A stretch of DNA of 64,000 nucleotides from Paracoccaceae bacterium. GTDB taxonomy: Bacteria; Pseudomonadota; Alphaproteobacteria; Rhodobacterales; Rhodobacteraceae. A program made the translations under genes and the position numbers. Every line of letters begins with the position of its first letter. Within the stretch, counting starts at the first letter, position 1. The notes beneath the pieces were generated by a model that worked only from the letters and a program-made list of their open reading frames with translations, searched no databases and was not told the origin of the DNA. The stretch lies in the NCBI GenBank assembly GCA_958296035.1, contig OY282431.1, positions 1,367,001 to 1,431,000 of the forward strand. The letters are read 5' to 3'. Shown piece after piece: positions 1 through 11,579 of the stretch.

Positions 1-1
1 C

Positions 2-1189
2 GAGGTCGAAGAGCTAGCAAAGGAGTTGGACCAGGATGCGTTCACCCGGCAAGCAGGGAACGGAATAAACCAGCAGCTTATCGCCCCGAAACTGCGTTGG
101 ATCGAGCGCCACGAGCCGGATGTGTTCGCGCGGATCGGCACCGTCTTCGGCTCTTACGACTTTGTCAACTGGAAACTGACAGGCCGCAAGGCGGTCGAGC
201 AGAACTGGGCGCTGGAGGCGGGTTTCGTCGATCTGGCAACTGGCAATCTATCGGAGGACCTGATCCTGCTGGGCCATATCGCCCCGGAAACGGTGCCACC
301 GAAAATCGCGTCCCACACCGTTTTGGGCGCAGTCACCGCGGGAGCGTCCGCTGCCACTGGACTTGCCCAGGCCACGCCTGTCGTCGGCGGTGCGGCCGAT
401 CACATCGCCTCGGGATTTGCCGCCGGGATCAACCGACCGGGCGATGTGTTGCTGAAATTCGGCGGCTCGGCAGACATCCTGATCGCCACGCAAGTGGCCT
501 GCCCCGACCCACGCATGTTTCTTGACTATCACCTGATACCCGGCCTTTACATGCCCAACGGTTGCATGGCATCGGGCGGCACGGCACTGAACTGGTTCGT
601 CGAGAAATTCGCACAGGGAGAGCATCATGCCGCCTGTGCCGCCGGGCTAACGCTGCACCAGCATCTCGACCAGATCGCAGCCGAGACCGTGCCCGGCGCC
701 GACGGCGTGCAAATCATCCCATATTTCCTAGGCGAAAAGACCCCGATCCACGATCCGCAGGCGCGCGCCATCATCCATGGGCTCAGCCTCAACCACGACT
801 TGTGCCACATATGGCGGGCCCTGCTGGAAGGCTTCGCCTATGCCTTCCGCCACCATATCGAGGTGCTGGGTGACATGAAGCATCCGACAACACGTTACGT
901 GGCATCGGACGGCGGGTCGAAGTCGCGGATCTGGATGCAAATTTGCGCCGACGTGCTCCAAAGCCCGGTGCAGCTGCTCGAAGGCCATCCTGGTTCCTGC
1001 CTCGGCGCCGCCATGATGGCGATGATCGGCAGCGGCCTGTCGCAGGACTGGAACGTCGTCGACAACTATGTCGCCTATGGCGACCGTGTCGAGCCGCGGG
1101 GCGAGTTTGCCTCGTTTTACGACCGGGGCTATCGGCGGTTTCGCGACACCTATGAAACGCTTGCCGCGTCAGGGTGGCAAACGCCATGA
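2..1189 (+). CDS. FGGY-family carbohydrate kinase, 5' end outside window
   Basis: The protein resembles the C-terminal two thirds of an FGGY sugar kinase, which phosphorylates a sugar or polyol with ATP in the cytoplasm. The reading frame is open to the window edge, so the start is missing. Visible family features are a substrate-domain segment (FGSYDFVNWKLTG), the hinge/nucleotide region GGAADHIASGF and LKFGGSADI, and a late SDGGSKSRIWMQICADVL segment that matches the adenosine-binding motif of the family. The stop overlaps the start of the HAD gene (ATGA), and the next two genes also overlap, so four genes look translationally coupled. The substrate cannot be told from sequence. The family call is confident; the sugar is unknown. 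Confidence 0.85.
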   Translation, partial: EVEELAKELDQDAFTRQAGNGINQQLIAPKLRWIERHEPDVFARIGTVFGSYDFVNWKLTGRKAVEQNWALEAGFVDLATGNLSEDLILLGHIAPETVPPKIASHTVLGAVTAGASAATGLAQATPVVGGAADHIASGFAAGINRPGDVLLKFGGSADILIATQVACPDPRMFLDYHLIPGLYMPNGCMASGGTALNWFVEKFAQGEHHAACAAGLTLHQHLDQIAAETVPGADGVQIIPYFLGEKTPIHDPQARAIIHGLSLNHDLCHIWRALLEGFAYAFRHHIEVLGDMKHPTTRYVASDGGSKSRIWMQICADVLQSPVQLLEGHPGSCLGAAMMAMIGSGLSQDWNVVDNYVAYGDRVEPRGEFASFYDRGYRRFRDTYETLAASGWQTP

Positions 1190-1452: not shown

Positions 1453-1789
1453 GATCGACCCGGTCAAGGACCTGCCACTCGCCGAAGAGTTCCGCAAGAC
1501 ACCAGTGGGCCACCACAGCCCGAACCTGATGCGGGTGTTGAACCTCCTGCGCTATGACCCCTCCGGCTACCAGATCGTGCTGGTCACACTGGTGCCTTTT
1601 AAGGAATGGATCTTGGGCACGATGCCGCCCGACCGCGACGAGCCCATCGTGTTGCACTCGGAAGGAGAGCTCTTCACCACTCGCGAAGACGCCGAATGGG
1701 CTGTGTTCTGCACCCGCTGGCGCGCCCATACCGGCCACGCCATCAGCACGACGCGCGACGTGCCGCTCCTGGAAGACAGCGAATGCTGA
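1445..1789 (+). CDS. dmfA1: N,N-dimethylformamidase small (alpha) subunit-like protein
   Basis: This is a 114-residue protein that lies directly before a formamidase large-subunit gene. Its pattern fits the small subunit of bacterial N,N-dimethylformamidase as I remember it: an SPNLMRVLNLLR helix followed by a C-terminal FTTREDAEWAVFCTRW segment, similar in spacing to the Paracoccus-type small subunit. In that enzyme the small subunit is non-catalytic and packs on the large iron-containing subunit. The ATG at 1445 overlaps the HAD stop by 8 bases, and its stop overlaps the start of the large subunit by 7 bases, which supports an obligate partnership. The sequence match is moderate and the neighbour makes the call. 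The enzyme's true substrate could be another formamide. Confidence 0.65.
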   Translation: MYKIDPVKDLPLAEEFRKTPVGHHSPNLMRVLNLLRYDPSGYQIVLVTLVPFKEWILGTMPPDRDEPIVLHSEGELFTTREDAEWAVFCTRWRAHTGHAISTTRDVPLLEDSEC

Positions 1790-1996
1790 AACTGCTTGGA
1801 TACCCTGATCGCTACTCAGCCGCGCCGGGGGAGAGTGTCACGTTCCACGTCTCCGCAGAGGAGAACCAGAGCTATGAAGCCAGCCTCGTCCGGGTAATCT
1901 GCGGCGACTGCAACCCCGACGGGCCGGGCCTGAAGTTCGAGAGCATCCCGAGCGCGATCGACGGCGTCTATGACGGCGCGCGACAGGTGACGAACG
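1783..1996 (+). pseudogene. dmfA2: N,N-dimethylformamidase large subunit-like gene, 5' fragment (before IS66 insertion)
   Basis: The first 71 codons of the formamidase large subunit-like gene (MLKLLGYPDRYSAAPGES, then a beta-rich start) are cut by an IS66-type element after 1996. The 8 bases 1989-1996 (gacgaacg) are repeated at 4806-4813. Joining base 1996 to 4814 keeps the frame and gives ARQVTN-AGSYMAAMVKG, so the undamaged gene encoded 747 residues, close to the roughly 760 of known large subunits. As it stands translation runs into the IS and stops at 2034. The start overlaps the small-subunit gene. Confidence 0.8.
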
Positions 1997-2102
1997 GTAA
2001 GCGGGCAAACTGGTACGTCCTGATTAGCTGTTGACGATCAGCATCTGTTCTCCGATCATCTGAATTCGGTCAATCCCGTGACAACAGATGGAGACAAGGC
2101 CC

Positions 2103-2414
2103 ATGGAGAACGGCATTTCACAATCACCACCCACCCCACAGCGCGCTCCTGTGCGGAGCCGTGATCAGTGGCGGGACATCTATGACACCTGGCAATCATC
2201 GGAGCTGACACGCCGGGACTTTTGCGACACACAGGGTCTCCGCTACAGCACGTTCCGGAGATGGTGCCAGCGCTTCCGCAAAGACACCGGCAGCCACACG
2301 GCCGCCGCCCCGGTCACGCCGCCCTTTGTCAATCTCGGACCAGCTGCACAGCCGCACTGGGAGATCGAGCTCACGCTCGGGCCCGATGTTGTCTTGCGGA
2401 TGCGCCGGTCATGA
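2103..2414 (+). CDS. tnpA: IS66 accessory protein TnpA
   Basis: This is a small IS66 accessory protein with a helix-turn-helix: DQWRDIYDTWQSSELTRRDFCDTQGLRYSTFRRW is the typical TnpA DNA-binding segment (pattern at residues about 18-52), followed by a proline/alanine-rich linker. The role of TnpA in IS66 transposition is accessory and not well understood. An ATG at 2088 is an alternative start; I prefer 2103 because AAGG lies just before it. The stop overlaps the tnpB start (ATGA), which is the usual coupling in this family. Confidence 0.8.
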   Translation: MENGISQSPPTPQRAPVRSRDQWRDIYDTWQSSELTRRDFCDTQGLRYSTFRRWCQRFRKDTGSHTAAAPVTPPFVNLGPAAQPHWEIELTLGPDVVLRMRRS

Positions 2415-2764
2415 TCGGGTCCGGCTTTCCTGGCCGGGGCCGCATCTGGCTGGCCACCGAACCCGCCGACATGCGCCTGTCCTATGACGGGCTTTCGGCC
2501 TTGGTGCGCAACCGCCTCGGCCGCAACCCGATCTCGGGGGACTGGTATGTCTTCCTCAATCGACGCCGCACCATGCTCAAGGTCATCGCCTTCGACCGGG
2601 GCGGCTACTGGATCTGGTCCAAGCGCCTGGAGAGCGGCCTCTTTACCCGGCTCACCTCCAGCAATCCGGCCGAGCCGGTCTCGGCCACCGGGCTCATGGC
2701 GCTGGTCGACGGCATCGACATCATCAAGTCAAGACAACGCAAACGGTACGCCCGGGCCGCCTGA
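2411..2764 (+). CDS. tnpB: IS66 accessory protein TnpB (IS66 Orf2-like)
   Basis: This is a 117-residue TnpB. The segments RIWLATEPADMRLSYDGLS, NPISGDWYVFLNRRR, KVIAFDRGGYWIWSKRLE and a C-terminal lysine/arginine tail are the family signature. Its length is normal. It overlaps tnpA by 4 bases. The protein is required together with TnpA for efficient transposition in the IS66 elements that have been studied; its biochemical role is not settled. Confidence 0.92.
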   Translation: MIGSGFPGRGRIWLATEPADMRLSYDGLSALVRNRLGRNPISGDWYVFLNRRRTMLKVIAFDRGGYWIWSKRLESGLFTRLTSSNPAEPVSATGLMALVDGIDIIKSRQRKRYARAA

Positions 2765-2863
2765 CGGCGCCGGGCCGGCCGGCCTCGCCTCAGGCCAGGT
2801 CAGGGATGTGTCGTGTGGTCAGGATTGTCGCCATGACCGCTTGAGAGGTGACATCGGAATGGG

Positions 2864-4546
2864 CTATCCCGGCGCCGCCATGCCGGCCCGGGGAGATGCA
2901 CAGGGCCGTTCCGGGTCCGGGGTATAGACGCCGGCCGAACCGCCGAAGGGCCGCTGACTGACAACCGAGCCCAAGGGCGCCGCACCAAACACGTCTGGCC
3001 AGCGGCGGGGCGTCAACTCCTCGACCAGCCGGGCCGGATGCAGGGCCACACGCTGCAGGACATCGACCAGCCAGGTCCAGGCATCAACACACTGCAATTG
3101 ACAGGTCAGAAGCAAGGACTGGATGGTGGCGATGTCGCGGGCACCGGCCTCGCTCCAGGCAAACAGCCAGTTCCTGCGACCCGTCGCTATGGGGCGGATC
3201 TGGCGCTCCAGTTCGTTGGTATCCAGACGAACACCGGCATGACCCAGACACACCTCAAGCCCGGCACGCCGCTCTCCGGCATAACACAGAGCCTGGTAGA
3301 ACGGATCCTTCGGCAACCAGTCACGCGCCAGCATCGTCCCATGCCACTCCCAGAAGGCCGCCATCGCCGGCGCCAGCAGCTTATGACGGGCAGCCAGCAA
3401 CGCAACCCCCGATGTGCCGTCCGCACGCGCCTCCCGCTCGGTCAGGTACATCTTGGCAATCAACGCCAGAGCACGCCCCGCATGCTCGGGCTCATGATCC
3501 TTGCAGCCCTCGAACTTGCGACGGGTGTGCGCCCAGCACAACGCATGCGCAACCCGTCCCGACATCGCCTCCGACCAGGCCGCATAAGCCCCATAGCCAT
3601 CGCTGTGCAAAACCCCGGACCAGTCGCCCAGAATGCCCCCCACATGATGGTGCTGGCGATCGGGCCGGTAATGAAACACAATCTCGCCCCGGTCGCCCAG
3701 CACCGGCCACAACACGCCGCGGCGCATCTTGCCCCGTGATATCCGGCCGGCCCGGAGATATGTCTCGTCCATCATGATGACATCGCTCGCCAGGACAGAG
3801 CGCCACTGCGCCTCGGCCAGCGGACAGAGAAGGTCAATCGCACGTCGCACCCAGCCCCTGAGGCTCGAGCGGCTGACCTCAATGCCGTCCGCAGACAGAC
3901 GCCGGTGCTGGCGATTGAGGGGCATATGCCAGATGAACTTGTCGATCAGCATACGGGCGATGAAACTGACATCGACGCAACTGCTCTCGAAGACCGACGG
4001 GGGCGTCGGAACCGGGAGGAAGGCGTTGGTCTCGCGGCGCTTGTAGATCGGCATGATGAAGCGGGCGACGTGCGAGGTCTCGCGACGGGTGACCAGCTTG
4101 CAGACCACATGCTCGCCGACCTTCTCGAGTTCGTCCCCGGGAATGCCGTCAAGACCCTCCGGTTCAAGATACACATCCTGGACCGGAACATCGGCATCAA
4201 AGCGCAGACCGCTGTCATTGACGGCAGAGCCACGCTTCTTCTTGCCGCGCTTGCGTTTCTTCTTCTCCTCGGCCTGACCGGCACCAGTCGACGGGTCATC
4301 CTGCGCGTCATCATCGGATGACGGGGCGGTCTCGGCGCCGGACTCGACGCCGGCGGCCTCGAACATGTCGCGTCCCTGCTCGGGCGTCCTGACCGTCTGC
4401 CGTTCGGATGTGGCGCCGAAGAGCTGGCGCTTGAACCACTCTATCTGACGCCTGAGAGAGGCAATTTCTTGTGTGAGAGAGGTGACGTCTTTTCGTGCTG
4501 CATTCCGTTCAGCCAGTGCCTTTTCGAGGGCCCGTTTCGGTGTCAT
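2864..4546 (-). CDS. tnpC: IS66-family DDE transposase TnpC
   Basis: This is a 560-residue IS66 transposase. In order it has an N-terminal leucine-zipper-like helix (LTQEIASLRRQIEWFKRQLFG), an acidic then lysine-rich linker, a zinc-finger-like/DUF region, and a DDE catalytic domain with the acidic residues in VIMMDETYLR, LHSDGYGAYA and LDTNELERQIRP. I place the start at 4546 because a good ribosome site (GGGAGG) precedes it; an upstream in-frame codon at 4666 would add 40 unlikely residues. The gene points opposite to tnpA and tnpB in the same element, which is unusual. It looks intact and probably active. Confidence 0.92.
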   Translation of the reverse strand: MTPKRALEKALAERNAARKDVTSLTQEIASLRRQIEWFKRQLFGATSERQTVRTPEQGRDMFEAAGVESGAETAPSSDDDAQDDPSTGAGQAEEKKKRKRGKKKRGSAVNDSGLRFDADVPVQDVYLEPEGLDGIPGDELEKVGEHVVCKLVTRRETSHVARFIMPIYKRRETNAFLPVPTPPSVFESSCVDVSFIARMLIDKFIWHMPLNRQHRRLSADGIEVSRSSLRGWVRRAIDLLCPLAEAQWRSVLASDVIMMDETYLRAGRISRGKMRRGVLWPVLGDRGEIVFHYRPDRQHHHVGGILGDWSGVLHSDGYGAYAAWSEAMSGRVAHALCWAHTRRKFEGCKDHEPEHAGRALALIAKMYLTEREARADGTSGVALLAARHKLLAPAMAAFWEWHGTMLARDWLPKDPFYQALCYAGERRAGLEVCLGHAGVRLDTNELERQIRPIATGRRNWLFAWSEAGARDIATIQSLLLTCQLQCVDAWTWLVDVLQRVALHPARLVEELTPRRWPDVFGAAPLGSVVSQRPFGGSAGVYTPDPERPCASPRAGMAAPG

Positions 4547-4813
4547 GACCGACCTCCCGATGGCGCTTTTCGGGGCTGGAAAAGCGGCCCGAACGGGGCT
4601 GGATACGGTGATGTACTGTCGAACTTGAGCATGACGTTCTCTAGCACGAAGGGGCAGAGGTGTCAAGCAGAAATATTCTCTAGAACCACAATATATGGAA
4701 GTTAACTAGCCCTTATTGTGTCTCTAACAAAGTTATGCAAGATGTTGACGAGCACTGTATTCACGATTAGGAATGACTCGATGACGTACCAGTTTGCCCG
4801 CTTACGACGAACG

Positions 4814-6843
4814 CGGGCTCTTACATGGCCGCCATGGTCAAAGGGCTGGCCCGGGCGCGGCAGCTGACCTTCGTCGCGATGATCTGGCCGACGTTGATCG
4901 CCCGCGACAATCAGACTATCTTTTGCTGGGGCACCGCCGATGGTGATCGCCTGCGGCTTCTGATGCGCAAGGGCGGAATCCTGACGCTGGAAGCGGCGAG
5001 CGGCAGCATCGACTTGTCGGATGCACCGATGCTCGAGCGTCAGTGGTACGCGGTGCATTTCACTTTCGATGCCGATACCGGTGCCGGGGAGCTTACGCAA
5101 TGCCCGCTTCGGGACTATGCGCTGATCCGTGACAAGGGGCGGTCCTCGGGAACCCTCCCCCCGATGCGGCCGCCTGACACCGCGAGCATCACGGTTGCGG
5201 GGTGCCCCAGCGCTGACGGCTCGGTCGGCGCCCATTTCAATGGCAAGATCGACGGCCCAGCGCTGCTGGCCGGCCTGCACCCGCAGGCGGTTCATGACCG
5301 GCTTCTGTCCGGCGCAAAGCCGGGCGCCGTGCTGCTGGCCCACTGGGATTTCACGCAAGCTCAGTCGGGCGTCTCCGCAACCGACATCTCCGGCCACGAC
5401 AACCACGGGACGCTCCTGAACGCCCCTACGCGCGCTATGAAGGGCTGGAACTGGACCGGCGCATTCCACCGCTGGACCGAGCGGCCCGACCAATACGGTG
5501 CGGTGCATTTCCACCACGACGACCTCTACGACGCGAACTGGACCCCGTCCTTTTCCCTGACCATCCCCGAGAACTTCTGCTCCGGCGCCTACGCGGTGCG
5601 GATAAAATGCGGCAAGAGCACGCGTGAGGAAACCCGTGACTACTACATGCCATTCTTCATCCGCCCACCGCCCCGGCCCGCGGGCGTACCCGGCAAGCGC
5701 GACCGCATCGCCTTTCTCGCGCCTACGGCCAGCTACATCGCCTATGCCAACCACGGCGAGCACATCACTGCCCGCGAGGCCGAGCGCGTTATCGGGCGGC
5801 TCTTGGAGTTTGGCCATGCGGACATGTACATGTACGAGCACCCTGAGATCGGCGGTTCGCTTTATGACAGCCACTTGGACGGCTCGGGCGTGTGCTATTC
5901 TTCGCGGCTCCGGCCGGTGCTGAATTTTACCTCGCAATATCACAGCTGGCTCGGCGGACACGGTTCGGCGCTTTGGCAGTACAATGCTGACACGCATCTT
6001 CTGGCCTGGCTTGAGGCCAAGGGCTTCGACCACGACGTGATCACCGACGAGGACCTGCACCACGAGGGTGCGCATCTGCTGGAGGATTACCGGGTCGTCC
6101 TGACTGGCACCCACCCGGAATACTATTCCACTGCCATGTGGGACGGGCTGCGGTCGTGGATCGATCACGGTGGGCGGCTGATGTATCTGGGCGCGAACGG
6201 GTTCTACTGGCACGTGGCGTTCAGCGACGAGATGCCTGGACTGATGGAGGTGCGCCGCGCCGAGGACGGCATCCGCACTTGGATGGCCGAACCCGGCGAG
6301 TACTACCACTCCTTTACTGGTGAGCAGAGCGGGCTCTACCGCCGCCGCGGTCATGCCCCGAACGAGATCTGCGGGCTCGGGTTTATAGCGCAGGGCTTCG
6401 ACAAATGCTCTTATTACCGCCGTGCACCGGACTCCAAGAACCCTCGGGCGGCCTTCATTTTCGAGGGCGTCGACGACGAGATCATTGGCGATTTCGGCCT
6501 GATCGGCGGCGGGGCGGCCGGGCTGGAACTCGACTGCATCACGGCCGAACTCGGCTCGCCGCCGAACATCCTGCGGTTGGCCACCTCAGAGAACCACACC
6601 CAGCAGGTGATGCTGGCAAACGAAGAATTCGGTGTCGTTCCGCCCAATCTCGGCGGCGACCAGAACGACAGGATCCATGCAGATCTGGCGTTTTACGAGA
6701 CGCCGTCAGGCGGTGCCGTGTTCTCGACCGGCTCGATTGCCTGGTGCGGCTCGCTGCTTTGGAACGACGGGGATAACAACGTCTCACAGATCACCGAAAA
6801 CGTGCTGAGGAGATTCGCGGATGAGCCATCCTTCGACGTCTGA
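4814..6843 (+). pseudogene. dmfA2: N,N-dimethylformamidase large (beta) subunit-like gene, 3' fragment (after IS66 insertion)
   Basis: This 676-codon part carries nearly all of the large subunit. It starts with a concanavalin/LamG-like beta domain (about the first 220 residues, with HFTFDADTGAGE and DISGHDNHGTL), followed by the formamidase catalytic domain. The H-x-E pair in THPEYYS (codons at 6112 and 6118) is a candidate iron-ligand pair, since the studied enzyme uses Tyr, His and Glu; I quote that from memory. The first in-frame ATG after the insertion is 4825, but it has no clear ribosome site and would lack the start of the beta domain. A shortened product is possible but likely inactive. 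Precise loss of the IS would restore the gene. Confidence 0.82.
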
Positions 6844-7844: not shown

Positions 7845-8903
7845 ATGCGACCCGTACCCATCAACGAGAACCACCACACCAGGGAAGAACTGGAGCATTT
7901 GGCCAAGAATTGCAAGGACAAGCTCTGGGAGCGTCGGATACTGGGCGTGGCCCTGGCGATGTCCGGGCTGCAGCGCACCGAGGTCGCCCGTTCACAGGGC
8001 GTGGGTGCGCAGACGCTGCGGGACTGGATCTGCTTGTACAACGAGGGCGGCGTGGAGGGTTTGCGCCCGCAGCCACGCGGCGGCAGCAAGTGTCGCCTGT
8101 CGGCGGAGAAGCTTGAGACGTTGCAAGAGCACATCGAAGCTGGTCCCGGGGAGGAGGCAGCGTCGCCGTCCCGGTTCCGGCTCTGTGACATTGCGGCGAT
8201 GATCAAGGACAGGTGCGGTGTTCACTACACGCTGGAGGGGACGCGCCAGGTGTTGCGTCGTATAGGGTTTCGCTGGATATCGCCCTGTCCGATCCATCCG
8301 AAGGCCGATGTGGCGGCGCAGAAGGCGTTTTGCGACACCTTTCAGGCCCGGGTGGCCGAGGTGACGGCTGGCAAGGCGGACAAGACGCCGATCGAGATCT
8401 GGTTCCAGGATGAAACCCGCATGGGTCAGAAGGGCATGCTGCGGCGCATATGGGCGCGCAAGTGTACCAGACCCAGGGTCAAGCGCGATCACCGCTACAA
8501 ATACTGCGTGCTGTTCTCGGCCGCCTGTCCCGAACACCACCTGTCCGCCGCACATCTGTGCGAGCGGTCCAACACCGAGGAGATGAACCGCCATCTCGGC
8601 GATATCAGCGCTGCGGTTCAAGAGGGCCATCATGCCGTGGTTGTCATGGACCGGGCCAGTTGGCACCGGTCCAACGGTCTTGAGGTTCCGGCCAATCTGT
8701 CGCTATTGCACTTGCCGCCCTACGCGCCCGAATTGAATGCGATTGAGCGTGTCAACGGACAGTTGAAGGACAATTACGGGGGCCGCTTTGTCAGGGTCCG
8801 GGGGCATGCCAAGGTGTTCTGCCACCTCATGTTCGGCATTGTGGTCATGACCGCCGAGCGACTGATGCGACTGGCAGCTATCAATGTCCCACACTTGACA
8901 TGA
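7845..8903 (+). CDS. Chimeric transposase: IS630-type body fused to the tail of another IS transposase
   Basis: Residues 1-300 are an IS630-family transposase: N-terminal helix-turn-helix domains, then DDE residues in IWFQDETRMG, VVVMDRASWH and LPPYAPELNAIE. From the codon for that last Glu (8745) the sequence switches to the C-terminal tail of the transposase found intact at 25342-26496 (ERVNGQLKDNYGG, GHAKVFCHLMFG, MTAERLMRLAA). The junction replaces one catalytic Glu by the other, so a formal DDE triad remains. The last residues (INVPHLT) and the stop at 8901-8903 come from the left end of the IS50-like element inserted at 8878. The start is fixed by AGGAGGAG upstream. Activity is doubtful because the two ends no longer match. 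Confidence 0.8.
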   Translation: MRPVPINENHHTREELEHLAKNCKDKLWERRILGVALAMSGLQRTEVARSQGVGAQTLRDWICLYNEGGVEGLRPQPRGGSKCRLSAEKLETLQEHIEAGPGEEAASPSRFRLCDIAAMIKDRCGVHYTLEGTRQVLRRIGFRWISPCPIHPKADVAAQKAFCDTFQARVAEVTAGKADKTPIEIWFQDETRMGQKGMLRRIWARKCTRPRVKRDHRYKYCVLFSAACPEHHLSAAHLCERSNTEEMNRHLGDISAAVQEGHHAVVVMDRASWHRSNGLEVPANLSLLHLPPYAPELNAIERVNGQLKDNYGGRFVRVRGHAKVFCHLMFGIVVMTAERLMRLAAINVPHLT

Positions 8904-11579
8904 CCAAAAGGCTGTGGCGTGTCTGGAGATCAGGGCCTGGTGGACCCCTGTAGTGATGACAGGGGTCCAGACTGCCATCTCTGCCCCCGGCAGTCAACCG
9001 GCGCCTGTCAGGACCCATGCCGCGCTCATGCCGCCGGCGCCGAAGCGGCGAGAGAGACCGGCAAGGAAGGGCGATCGGATCAGGACCACGTCAGCACGAA
9101 ACGACCGAAAGTGGGGATCACTAACTTAGCAGAAACGAGGAATTATAACTTAGCATTGACAGCAGGACCGGCCCCGGGGCCGCTCTCATGCAGGAACGTC
9201 AGGCGTTGCCGGGCGACGATGAGGGCAAAGATCACCGGCCCCGGGCATTGACGGGTCCAGGGGCCGCCCGGAAGGCCTTTCTCAAACCGTCCCCTGCGCC
9301 TCCCAGACCCGCATGGCCTGGTAGCCGAACACCGCAGCTGACAGGATCTGCAACCCTTCCCACAGCTTCTGCGTCCCCGGCAGGGGCTGCCGCTTCGAGG
9401 GATGAAACCCCGCCTGGCCCGCCGTCAGCACCACATACCGCTCCATGGTCATCTCGGGCGGGTCCCGCGACTTGCAAAAGCCATGCTTCCAGGCCAGCGC
9501 CTGCAACACCTTGATCTCGTCGGCAGGCACATACTTGCCCGCCGGGTCGGCGGGCTTCTCCCGCGCCAGCAGGGCAAGGTCCCAGACCCGAAAGGCGGTG
9601 ATGGCATCGAAGGCCAGACACTTCCCGAGATCATCGGCGCGGTCCAGCTTGCGGTCCTCGATGCGCGTGCCGGTCTTCAGGGCATGGAAGAAACGCTCAA
9701 TGCGCCAGCGCAATTCGTAGAAACGCACCACCTCCTCGGCACCCGCTGCATCAGCTGATCCCCCGGTGGTCAACAACAGCCAGCTGAGCACCGTCTTCGG
9801 CCGCCGCACCGCTGCCGTCGGCCTGCGCACCTCGCGGGCCGACACCGCCAGCATCCGCAACGGCGGACCACCTACTTTCACCGGCGGCTTCAGGTCGACA
9901 TACGCAGCCCGCAACGCCAGGCGGACCTTGCGAGCCTTCCGTCGCCGCACGCCGCCACTGGCCGCAAGCCTGATCCTGCGATGCCCCAGCACCGGCTGCC
10001 GGCCCATATACGACCACAGACATTCGCTCTTGCCTTCAGACAGCAAGACGCGGCGCCGCGCCGAGCGGCTGGCCCGGACAAGAAGTTCCGCACCGCTCTG
10101 GCGCGCCGCTTCCAGCAATTCCCAGAAATCACCCTCGCGGTCGCAGATGTTCACCACGCGGCTCTCGGGACACGCCGCCGACAGCGCCTGACCACGCCGC
10201 AATCCCGCCACCCAGCGACCACTGTCCTTGCCTTCGGCACGCCGAAAATCCGCATCCAGCGTATACAGGCCCAACGGACGGCCAACCCCGTTGACGGCCA
10301 CACCGCAATGCGCCAACAATCCGCGCGTGCCCTTGCCACCGCCGCCCAGGGCGTCCAGACCCGTCGTCGACGACAAACCGCCATAGTTCAGCGTCGTCGT
10401 GTCCTGTAGCGCCAGTATCAACGGCTCGCGCCGACAGCGCTCCACCGTCGCCTCGTAATGGGGCTCCAATATGTGTGCCATGCGCACCCTCGCATTCGAC
10501 AGCAGCCGATAGGCCGCCTTCTGCGCCGCCTGGCCCGGAAAGATGACCGGCAACGGCTCCCCGGGCCGCTCCAGCCACGCCTTGCCCATCGCCGCCAGAC
10601 GGCGCCTGACGCGGCCGTCGGGATAGCTGCTGCGTCCATACTCCCGCTCCGCCCACGCACCCTCGCAGTACAGCGGACCATAACACCCCAGGACAGGCGC
10701 CGGCTCGGCACACAAACCCGCCCGCCAGCCTGCCGCCAGCGGCTTCAGCCACACCGCCCGCCGCACACCCGAACGCCGACCCGAACTCCGCTCGGCGCAG
10801 CACCGCCAGCCAGCGGCCCGATAACTCAGCCCCGTATAACCCGGACCCGTGAAACTGTAGACCAGGAGCGGCCGTACGCCATAGCGCAACGCCCAGTCCC
10901 CGGCCACCCGCTCGCACGCCAGGCGCAGCACCTGCGAGGCCAGCTTGCCAACCCGAACCGAAGGCAGGATCAGAAAGCGCCGGTTGATCAGCACCTTGTC
11001 GATATGCGCCCGGCGGGCATCACAGCGCCAGCCTATGGCCGCATCGCGGGGGCGCAACTGCCAGCCGGCAGCCCCGAAGCTGAGGCCGCCCAGCCGGCCG
11101 TGGCGGGACGACACGATCCAGTAGCGCAAAAGGCCGCCCGGCGCCGGGCGCCAGCCGGCCGGATGGTGGCTCTCGATCATCGCTGCAAAGCAATGCCGGT
11201 CGGCCGTCTCGACGGCAACCAGCTGCACCTCGCCAAGTTCGGCCAGCGTGCAGGACAGTGTCTTGTCGGGATAGTCGGCGGCCGGCCGGCGGCGGACAGT
11301 GCGAGTATACGCCCGCGGGGGCGGCAGGGCAACGTCGAGCTCGGCGGCCAGGCGAGGCAGCACCTTGCGGGCCGCCGCGAGGCTGGGCTGGCCGCGGTAG
11401 TCGAGCCACGCCTCGCGGCGGCACAGATTGCGGGTCAGCTCGGCGCGGGCGTGCGTCCCCTGTTTACAGGCTGACTTGAACCATTGTACGGTATCGGCGG
11501 AAAACTGTCGGAGCCCAATCTGCATGATCGCCGAACATGGCACAAACTCTTGTTCGTGTCAAGTGTGGGACATTGATAG
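8878..11579 (-). mobile_element. IS4-family (IS50-like) insertion sequence with DruA-domain transposase
   Basis: The element is 2,702 bp with 23-bp perfect inverted ends starting CTATCAATGTCCCACAC (8878-8900 and complement 11557-11579). It is flanked by the 9-bp direct repeat gactggcag (8869-8877 and 11580-11588). Removing it with one repeat rebuilds exactly the sequence of the intact host IS (GCGACTGGCAGCGCCCGAC). A 9-bp duplication is typical of the IS50/IS10 group of IS4. It carries a single large transposase gene on the minus strand. Confidence 0.93.
9282..11525 (-). CDS. Transposase with N-terminal DUF4338 (DruA-like) domain and C-terminal IS50-type DDE domain
   Basis: The protein has about 747 residues, much longer than the 476 of IS50 transposase. 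Residues about 1-290 look like a DUF4338/DruA domain (WFKSACKQG, then LARHxY-type core replaced by FAAMIESHHPAGW, HIDKVLINRRFLILPSVRVGKLASQVL, LVYSFTGPGYTGLSYRAAGW). The rest is a Tn5/IS50-like transposase with catalytic Asp in LALQDTTTLNYGG and VNICDREGDFWELL and the YREK signature in YELRWRIERFFHALKTG. A GTG at 11543 could start it 6 residues earlier. DUF4338 is the domain of DruA in the Druantia phage-defence system, but here it belongs to a mobile element. The DNA-binding role of the domain in transposition is inference. Confidence 0.85.
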   Translation of the reverse strand: MQIGLRQFSADTVQWFKSACKQGTHARAELTRNLCRREAWLDYRGQPSLAAARKVLPRLAAELDVALPPPRAYTRTVRRRPAADYPDKTLSCTLAELGEVQLVAVETADRHCFAAMIESHHPAGWRPAPGGLLRYWIVSSRHGRLGGLSFGAAGWQLRPRDAAIGWRCDARRAHIDKVLINRRFLILPSVRVGKLASQVLRLACERVAGDWALRYGVRPLLVYSFTGPGYTGLSYRAAGWRCCAERSSGRRSGVRRAVWLKPLAAGWRAGLCAEPAPVLGCYGPLYCEGAWAEREYGRSSYPDGRVRRRLAAMGKAWLERPGEPLPVIFPGQAAQKAAYRLLSNARVRMAHILEPHYEATVERCRREPLILALQDTTTLNYGGLSSTTGLDALGGGGKGTRGLLAHCGVAVNGVGRPLGLYTLDADFRRAEGKDSGRWVAGLRRGQALSAACPESRVVNICDREGDFWELLEAARQSGAELLVRASRSARRRVLLSEGKSECLWSYMGRQPVLGHRRIRLAASGGVRRRKARKVRLALRAAYVDLKPPVKVGGPPLRMLAVSAREVRRPTAAVRRPKTVLSWLLLTTGGSADAAGAEEVVRFYELRWRIERFFHALKTGTRIEDRKLDRADDLGKCLAFDAITAFRVWDLALLAREKPADPAGKYVPADEIKVLQALAWKHGFCKSRDPPEMTMERYVVLTAGQAGFHPSKRQPLPGTQKLWEGLQILSAAVFGYQAMRVWEAQGTV

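Follow-up and report, generated by a model that had tools for sequence, protein, structure and literature searches.

The window analysed here, 64,000 nucleotides of a Paracoccaceae genome, raises the question of whether two open frames flanking an IS66 element are the halves of a single gene, what that gene encoded, and what kind of element interrupted it. Our best explanation, to which we assign a probability of roughly 0.9, is that an unusual IS66 lineage, in which tnpC was flipped long ago and which is still mobile, transposed into the large-subunit gene of a DMFA2-type amidohydrolase. The element comprises 2,809 bp (1997-4805) and splits a gene of 747 codons, with the following features at the insertion site.

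1783-1996, + strand: large-subunit gene, 5' piece covering 71 codons plus 1 nt, where domain I begins (phmmer to 6lvb/6lvd, E ~2e-12)
1989-1996, + strand: left copy of the 8-bp target-site duplication, gacgaacg (repeat search, joined flanks, copy comparison)
1997-2019, + strand: left terminal inverted repeat, 23 bp, perfect (inverted-repeat search)
4783-4805, - strand: right terminal inverted repeat, 23 bp, perfect (inverted-repeat search)
4806-4813, + strand: right copy of the 8-bp target-site duplication, gacgaacg (repeat search, joined flanks, copy comparison)
4814-6843, + strand: large-subunit gene, 3' piece, open for 672 aa from ATG 4825 and carrying all five residues of the active site (DMFA2_C, PF20254, 2.6e-97; alignment to 6lvb)

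Joining the flanks by script yielded 2,244 nt in frame, with 747 codons and a single terminal stop, and the joined protein reads VTN followed directly by AGSYM at the junction. Both gene pieces are free of stops, and they match consecutive parts of the same solved proteins (E ~2e-12 for the 5' piece and ~1e-124 for the 3' piece), so the join is not due to chance. The anatomy that the first-pass annotation had described, with its 8-bp repeat, perfect 23-bp inverted ends, in-frame join, and 747 codons, was confirmed in the sequence, and the insertion into the gene is real and ordinary.

Uninterrupted orthologues, proposed earlier as a check on the cut, were sought by scanning the contigs of genomes for the cut gene, which gave 18 relatives. 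Sixteen of them extend across the join, each without interruption; the other two (L030 and L037) stop short of the junction. Further on, L026 and L036 are truncated by contig ends and the frame of L028 breaks. The closest of the 18 relatives, L021 and L022, share 67% identity with the cut gene, and a search of the window genome with the 3' piece returned the cut gene as its sole match. In L037 (Bradyrhizobium sp. LTSP885, 4977-5612), the last ~200 amidase residues alone are matched, at 72% identity and midway along a long contig, which points to the remnant of a gene. The nearest relative found, genome G1124, has DNA identities of 94% and 96% over two matching stretches. Its contig C83 matches window positions 1-397, within the FGGY kinase gene, and then continues for 228 unrelated bp to the contig end, while another of its contigs begins at the equivalent of 6090, so that the junction is uncovered by G1124 contigs; the intact copies suggested for the window's own population were likewise not seen. 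The 228 bp (L125, 1-228, an open frame) gave no match against Pfam. This apparent break in the kinase gene, in an assembly that is a metagenome bin, possibly reflects an independent insertion in the same operon, or else a binning artefact.

Over the last 250 codons, the gene differs from L030, which lies on a G1124 contig, by 15 synonymous and 5 non-synonymous changes, and the resulting dN/dS of 0.098 indicates that selection probably acted on the large-subunit gene during most of the period after its split from L030. The window element is identical (0 differences in 2,809) to two other copies in the genome, L013 and L014. The earlier proposal of a recent cut in an otherwise open 747-codon gene is borne out by the stop-free pieces, the identical element copies, and the dN/dS of ~0.10, all of which support recency and give no date. 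It had also been proposed that the frame would be restored if the element were lost; this stands for a precise excision that also removes one of the 8-bp repeats and not otherwise, and loss of the element would still not mend the operon, since its HAD gene lacks ~125 codons (see below).

The cut gene had been named a formamidase. Against solved structures, the 3' piece scores 420 bits with the N-acetyl-(R)-beta-phenylalanine acylase 8huy and 419 bits with the Paracoccus N,N-dimethylformamidase 6lvb, and the 5' piece alone finds the N-termini of both the dimethylformamidase and the acylase structures. The account of the Paracoccus enzyme gives its iron ligands as Y399, Y440, and E521, with H519 also needed, and draws N547 at the active site (PMC7686228). 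All five residues are conserved in the 3' piece in the alignment to 6lvb; a DMFA2-type large subunit with two tyrosines and one glutamate as iron ligands is therefore present (DMFA2_C 2.6e-97; Y399, Y440, and E521 aligned), and by homology the cut gene is that of an iron-dependent DMFA2-type amidohydrolase. In the same account, F693 is said to narrow the dimethylformamidase pocket for small amides (PMC7686228); its equivalent in the window protein is valine, in a loop where the alignment is loose. The separate small subunit known from N,N-dimethylformamidase is encoded alongside the large-subunit gene, at the end of a run of genes that precedes it.

1-1189, + strand: FGGY carbohydrate kinase gene, 3' part, start upstream of the window (FGGY_C 1.8e-32 and FGGY_N 1.2e-20 on 26-1186)
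1186-1452, + strand: HAD phosphatase gene, shortened in frame by an internal deletion to 88 aa versus 214 in L022 (HAD_2 profile positions 122-176 only)
1445-1789, + strand: intact gene for the small subunit, DMFase alpha-like, 114 aa (present in 8 of 18 relatives; profile versus 6lvb_B, E 1.3e-5)

The small-subunit profile was built from nine sequences (the window and 8 relatives); as a single sequence searched against solved structures, the small subunit did not find 6lvb_B. In 8huy, chains A and B stand under one molecule name, whereas the window has a separate small-subunit gene before the large one. Kinase, HAD, and small-subunit matches occur together in 3 of the 18 relatives (L022, L024, and L027), several of the others lying on short contigs. 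DxDGT is the catalytic motif of HAD enzymes. In the window, ~125 residues of L022 are missing in frame from the HAD gene after its first nine, between WD and DDV, and the lost part includes the DxDGT motif, which is visible in L022, L024, and L027. Beyond the window lie BtpA and DeoR and, on the opposite strand, a short-chain dehydrogenase (SDR) and an ABC transporter with its solute-binding protein; a second permease frame of the transporter had no match in Pfam at 1e-5. The cut gene is followed downstream, at 7845-8903 on the + strand, by a DDE_3 transposase that carries winged-helix domains, which makes the locus rich in mobile elements, and a 753-codon frame on the - strand (9282-11543) combines a DruA-like domain (PF14236) with a transposase DNA-binding domain (PF14706).

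With this gene content, the operon looks like one of sugar type, and its amide is more likely to be sugar-linked than to be dimethylformamide. That it forms a true dimethylformamide or formamide pathway is unlikely in our estimation: both subunits are related to those of dimethylformamidase and the metal-site residues are conserved, but the acylase is equally close, F693 aligns with valine, and the neighbors comprise an ABC transporter with a solute-binding protein, SDR, DeoR, BtpA, an FGGY kinase, and a HAD protein. Thus, in relation to 6lvb, the window has two recognizable subunits and the same five active-site residues, but it differs in the valine at F693, in the sugar-type operon, and in the interruption of the gene; likeness to 8huy resides in an equal large-subunit score. 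The operon context suggests a substrate other than dimethylformamide. "Formamidase" is accordingly too narrow a name for what belongs to the DMFA2 family, and because a sugar-type operon surrounds the window protein, the label formamidase should not be given by default to DMFA2-type proteins.

A further question is whether the split gene could still yield a working enzyme, whether by making the two pieces separately or through excision at a useful frequency. The stub read from ATG 1783 has 83 residues, the last 12 of which lie inside the element, with a stop at 2034; the cell would make this stub and perhaps a 672-residue fragment that carries the metal-site residues and lacks the first 75 residues of the protein. 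Both pieces are open, all five active-site residues lie on the 3' piece, and the small-subunit gene is undamaged. The position of the cut, codon 71/72, is also near a domain boundary as placed in the published description of dimethylformamidase, where domain I spans 1-73 and 338-383 and domain II spans 74-337 (PMC7686228). However, the 3' piece is without its first 75 residues, inspection by eye shows no evident ribosome-binding site ahead of ATG 4825, and the operon's HAD gene is broken as well. In addition, tnpC points inwards, away from the 3' piece, so no element gene beside the right end reads towards it. A working split enzyme therefore appears highly improbable to us; with a stub and a fragment that lacks the first 75 residues, the interrupted enzyme is very probably not functional.

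The orientation of tnpC, which the first-pass annotation had not recorded, sets the element apart. Terminal inverted repeats and an 8-bp target duplication are traits of the IS66 family, in which tnpA, tnpB, and tnpC customarily run in one direction; this layout is a matter of custom and lies outside the family models. The window element has TnpA, TnpB, a DDE transposase TnpC, 23-bp ends, and 8-bp duplications, but the customary co-directional layout is absent, as tnpC faces tnpA-tnpB.

2103-2414, + strand: tnpA (NF047593, 57.7 bits, cut-off 28; further in-frame ATG at 2088)
2411-2764, + strand: tnpB (PF05717, 97.6 bits, cut-off 26.6)
2765-2863, no strand: 99-bp gap where tnpB and tnpC converge, with strong self-complementarity (fold; imperfect inverted repeat 2751-2774/2868-2891)
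2864-4546, - strand: tnpC, encoding the DDE transposase, opposed in strand to tnpA-tnpB (PF03050, 242.8 bits, cut-off 23.1; NF033517, 295, cut-off 180)
4547-4782, no strand: right-end leader of tnpC (distal part 4661-4782 with 37% G+C versus 64-65% in the genes, 64% in tnpC itself)

A further small model, PF13817, falls just under its cut-off (28 versus 30 bits). Standard IS66 elements (ISSpu21 in L110, ISAzo19 in L113, and the elements of genome G022) likewise possess TnpA, TnpB, and a DDE TnpC, and the left ends of the G022 elements resemble that of the window element, with 4-5 of 23 bases differing. In the window, by contrast, tnpC is on the opposite strand, with its 5' end beside the right end of the element, and its product is ~40-44% identical to those of the nine closest plasmid elements among those fetched.

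The window genome (3.64 Mb, one contig) contains 12 full-length copies of the element among 66 matches. In all 12, tnpC is opposed to tnpA-tnpB with the 3' ends facing, and 10 of the 12 are bordered by perfect 8-bp duplications whose sequences differ between sites, although those of L012 and L019 are alike at 7 of 8 bases. Three copies (window, L013, and L014) are identical, and the L012 copy has an 8-bp internal deletion. The flanks of L013 (G000:C1:45498-48306) and L015 (30636-33444) are unmatched, as expected from recombination or deletion after insertion. One IS66 copy with an 8-bp duplication lies inside a CRISPR-like array (G000:C1:23648-30204; L138, 5648-12204) that contains the repeat core GTGTCGCCGGGGTTTACGCCCCGGCC in 52 exact copies, mostly at ~73-bp intervals, and another copy of the element abuts the end of this array.

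Four decayed places in the genome keep tnpA or tnpB beside tnpC, and in three of them (L066, L067, and L068) the genes are opposed, with TnpC 58-68% identical over 90-206 residues. In the fourth, L069, tnpB and tnpC are on the same strand; this place looks scrambled, as tnpC is ahead of tnpA. The remaining decayed places fetched hold tnpC alone, no match, or repeats of the four. At L066, L070, and L072, an element end (0-3 differences) lies on the 5' side of tnpC, 260-380 bp ahead of the first match to it. Such an end might have been left by the loss of tnpA-tnpB from an element of the usual kind, but the right-end leader DNA of the window also matches at these three places (72-73%), which argues against that origin. 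At L071, some 1.4 kb separate the element end from tnpC; L067, L068, L069, and L075 yielded no element end. To judge from these decayed relatives with the same layout in the same genome, the flipped layout is old; 12 full copies, 10 of them with perfect 8-bp duplications and 3 of them identical, indicate that it is also mobile. Misassembly, to which repeats are prone, or a one-off rearrangement hardly merits consideration as the source of the flipped tnpC, given a layout shared by 12 of 12 copies at separate sites, intact ends, perfect duplications in 10 of them, and recurrence in 3 of the 4 readable decayed places.

In order to place this layout among its relatives, we turn to other genomes. 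A search of 248 same-family genomes with PF03050 at E <= 1e-50 gave 109 transposases among the matches listed, 9 of them in the window genome, and TnpC was paired by position with a TnpB among the matches listed, within 2 kb. Of 100 transposases in other genomes, 78 could be scored, and all 78 (52 genomes) are co-directional; the other 22 are without a listed TnpB partner. The same pairing finds all 9 listed transposases of the window genome opposed. When 30 loci from the PF03050 search were fetched, tnpB was readable in 29 and co-directional in 29 of 29, a set that overlaps with the 78. Plasmid relatives, represented by 10 fetched from the 40 listed of at least 5,000 matching records, are co-directional in 10 of 10 cases, as are the G022 elements (4/4). 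In the tnpC tree (midpoint root; rows under 200 residues, namely L066, L067, L068, and L118, left out), the window groups next to a clade whose members come from plasmids (nine), G022 (two), and G005 (one). That clade is co-directional throughout, except for the G005 element L122, where no tnpB was found, and the rest of the tree is co-directional where readable, L093 not being readable. Since both the adjoining clade and the rest of the tree have the customary layout where it can be read, the flip of tnpC is most simply regarded as a derived state.

In searches made elsewhere, the genome draws of which overlap, no second carrier of the flipped element was found. At E <= 1e-60, the TnpC protein turned up in 1 of 385 genomes from the class and 1 of 398 from the phylum, in both cases the window's own. 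The element DNA matched in 6 of 61 relatives at E <= 1e-3, with full copies solely in the window's own genome and stretches of up to 289 bp in G022 and G005 and up to 83 bp in G009, G032, and G043; at E <= 1e-10, it matched in 2 of 394 family genomes (its own and G022) and in 1 of 240 class genomes (its own). Five plasmid records match the element DNA, none of which covers 80% of the element. In IMG/VR, four stretches match a peptide pattern and none encodes a relative, and no exact 23-bp end was found. Among the papers listed in literature searches on IS66 gene layout, none is, judged by title and abstract opening, about IS66 gene order, and none describes a flipped tnpC; this is weak evidence, as the specialised IS66 papers are in subscription journals.

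The flipped layout bears on how the element is expressed. As tnpC reads leftwards from the right end, against tnpA-tnpB, it must have a promoter of its own. A promoter scan found two sites versus 0.7 expected, both at the left end and one per strand; the site at 2031-2059 reads into tnpA-tnpB, and no site was found before tnpC. By eye, a TTGACA is present in the right-end leader, with no good second box. The probable location of the tnpC promoter is the A+T-rich right-end leader. The region 2740-2900 folds at -88 kcal/mol (z -2.9; none of 200 shuffles matched this), and the folded gap could end both convergent transcripts; a terminator scan found 2 sites versus 2.1 expected, with no excess over shuffles.

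Taken together, the course of events that we favor is as follows. A member of this IS66 lineage transposed into the large-subunit gene of a two-subunit DMFA2-type amidohydrolase, duplicating 8 bp of its target, as the anatomy shows. Within the element, tnpA-tnpB would be transcribed rightwards from the left end and tnpC leftwards from the right end, from its own promoter, and the two transcripts would meet at the folded 99-bp gap. We consider it likely that tnpC is permanently flipped, with its own right-end promoter, and that the element has remained mobile in this form, having gone through an old and a recent round of copying at the least.

The disruption of a gene by an insertion sequence is commonplace, which cannot be said of a flipped tnpC. 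The flip uncouples the control of the transposase from that of TnpA and TnpB and thereby provides a natural way to test whether these two have to be produced jointly with TnpC, in a family whose transposition mechanism is little studied. If our interpretation is true, a single tnpA-tnpB-tnpC operon would not be required for IS66 transposition, and convergent transcription may set the rate at which the element moves.
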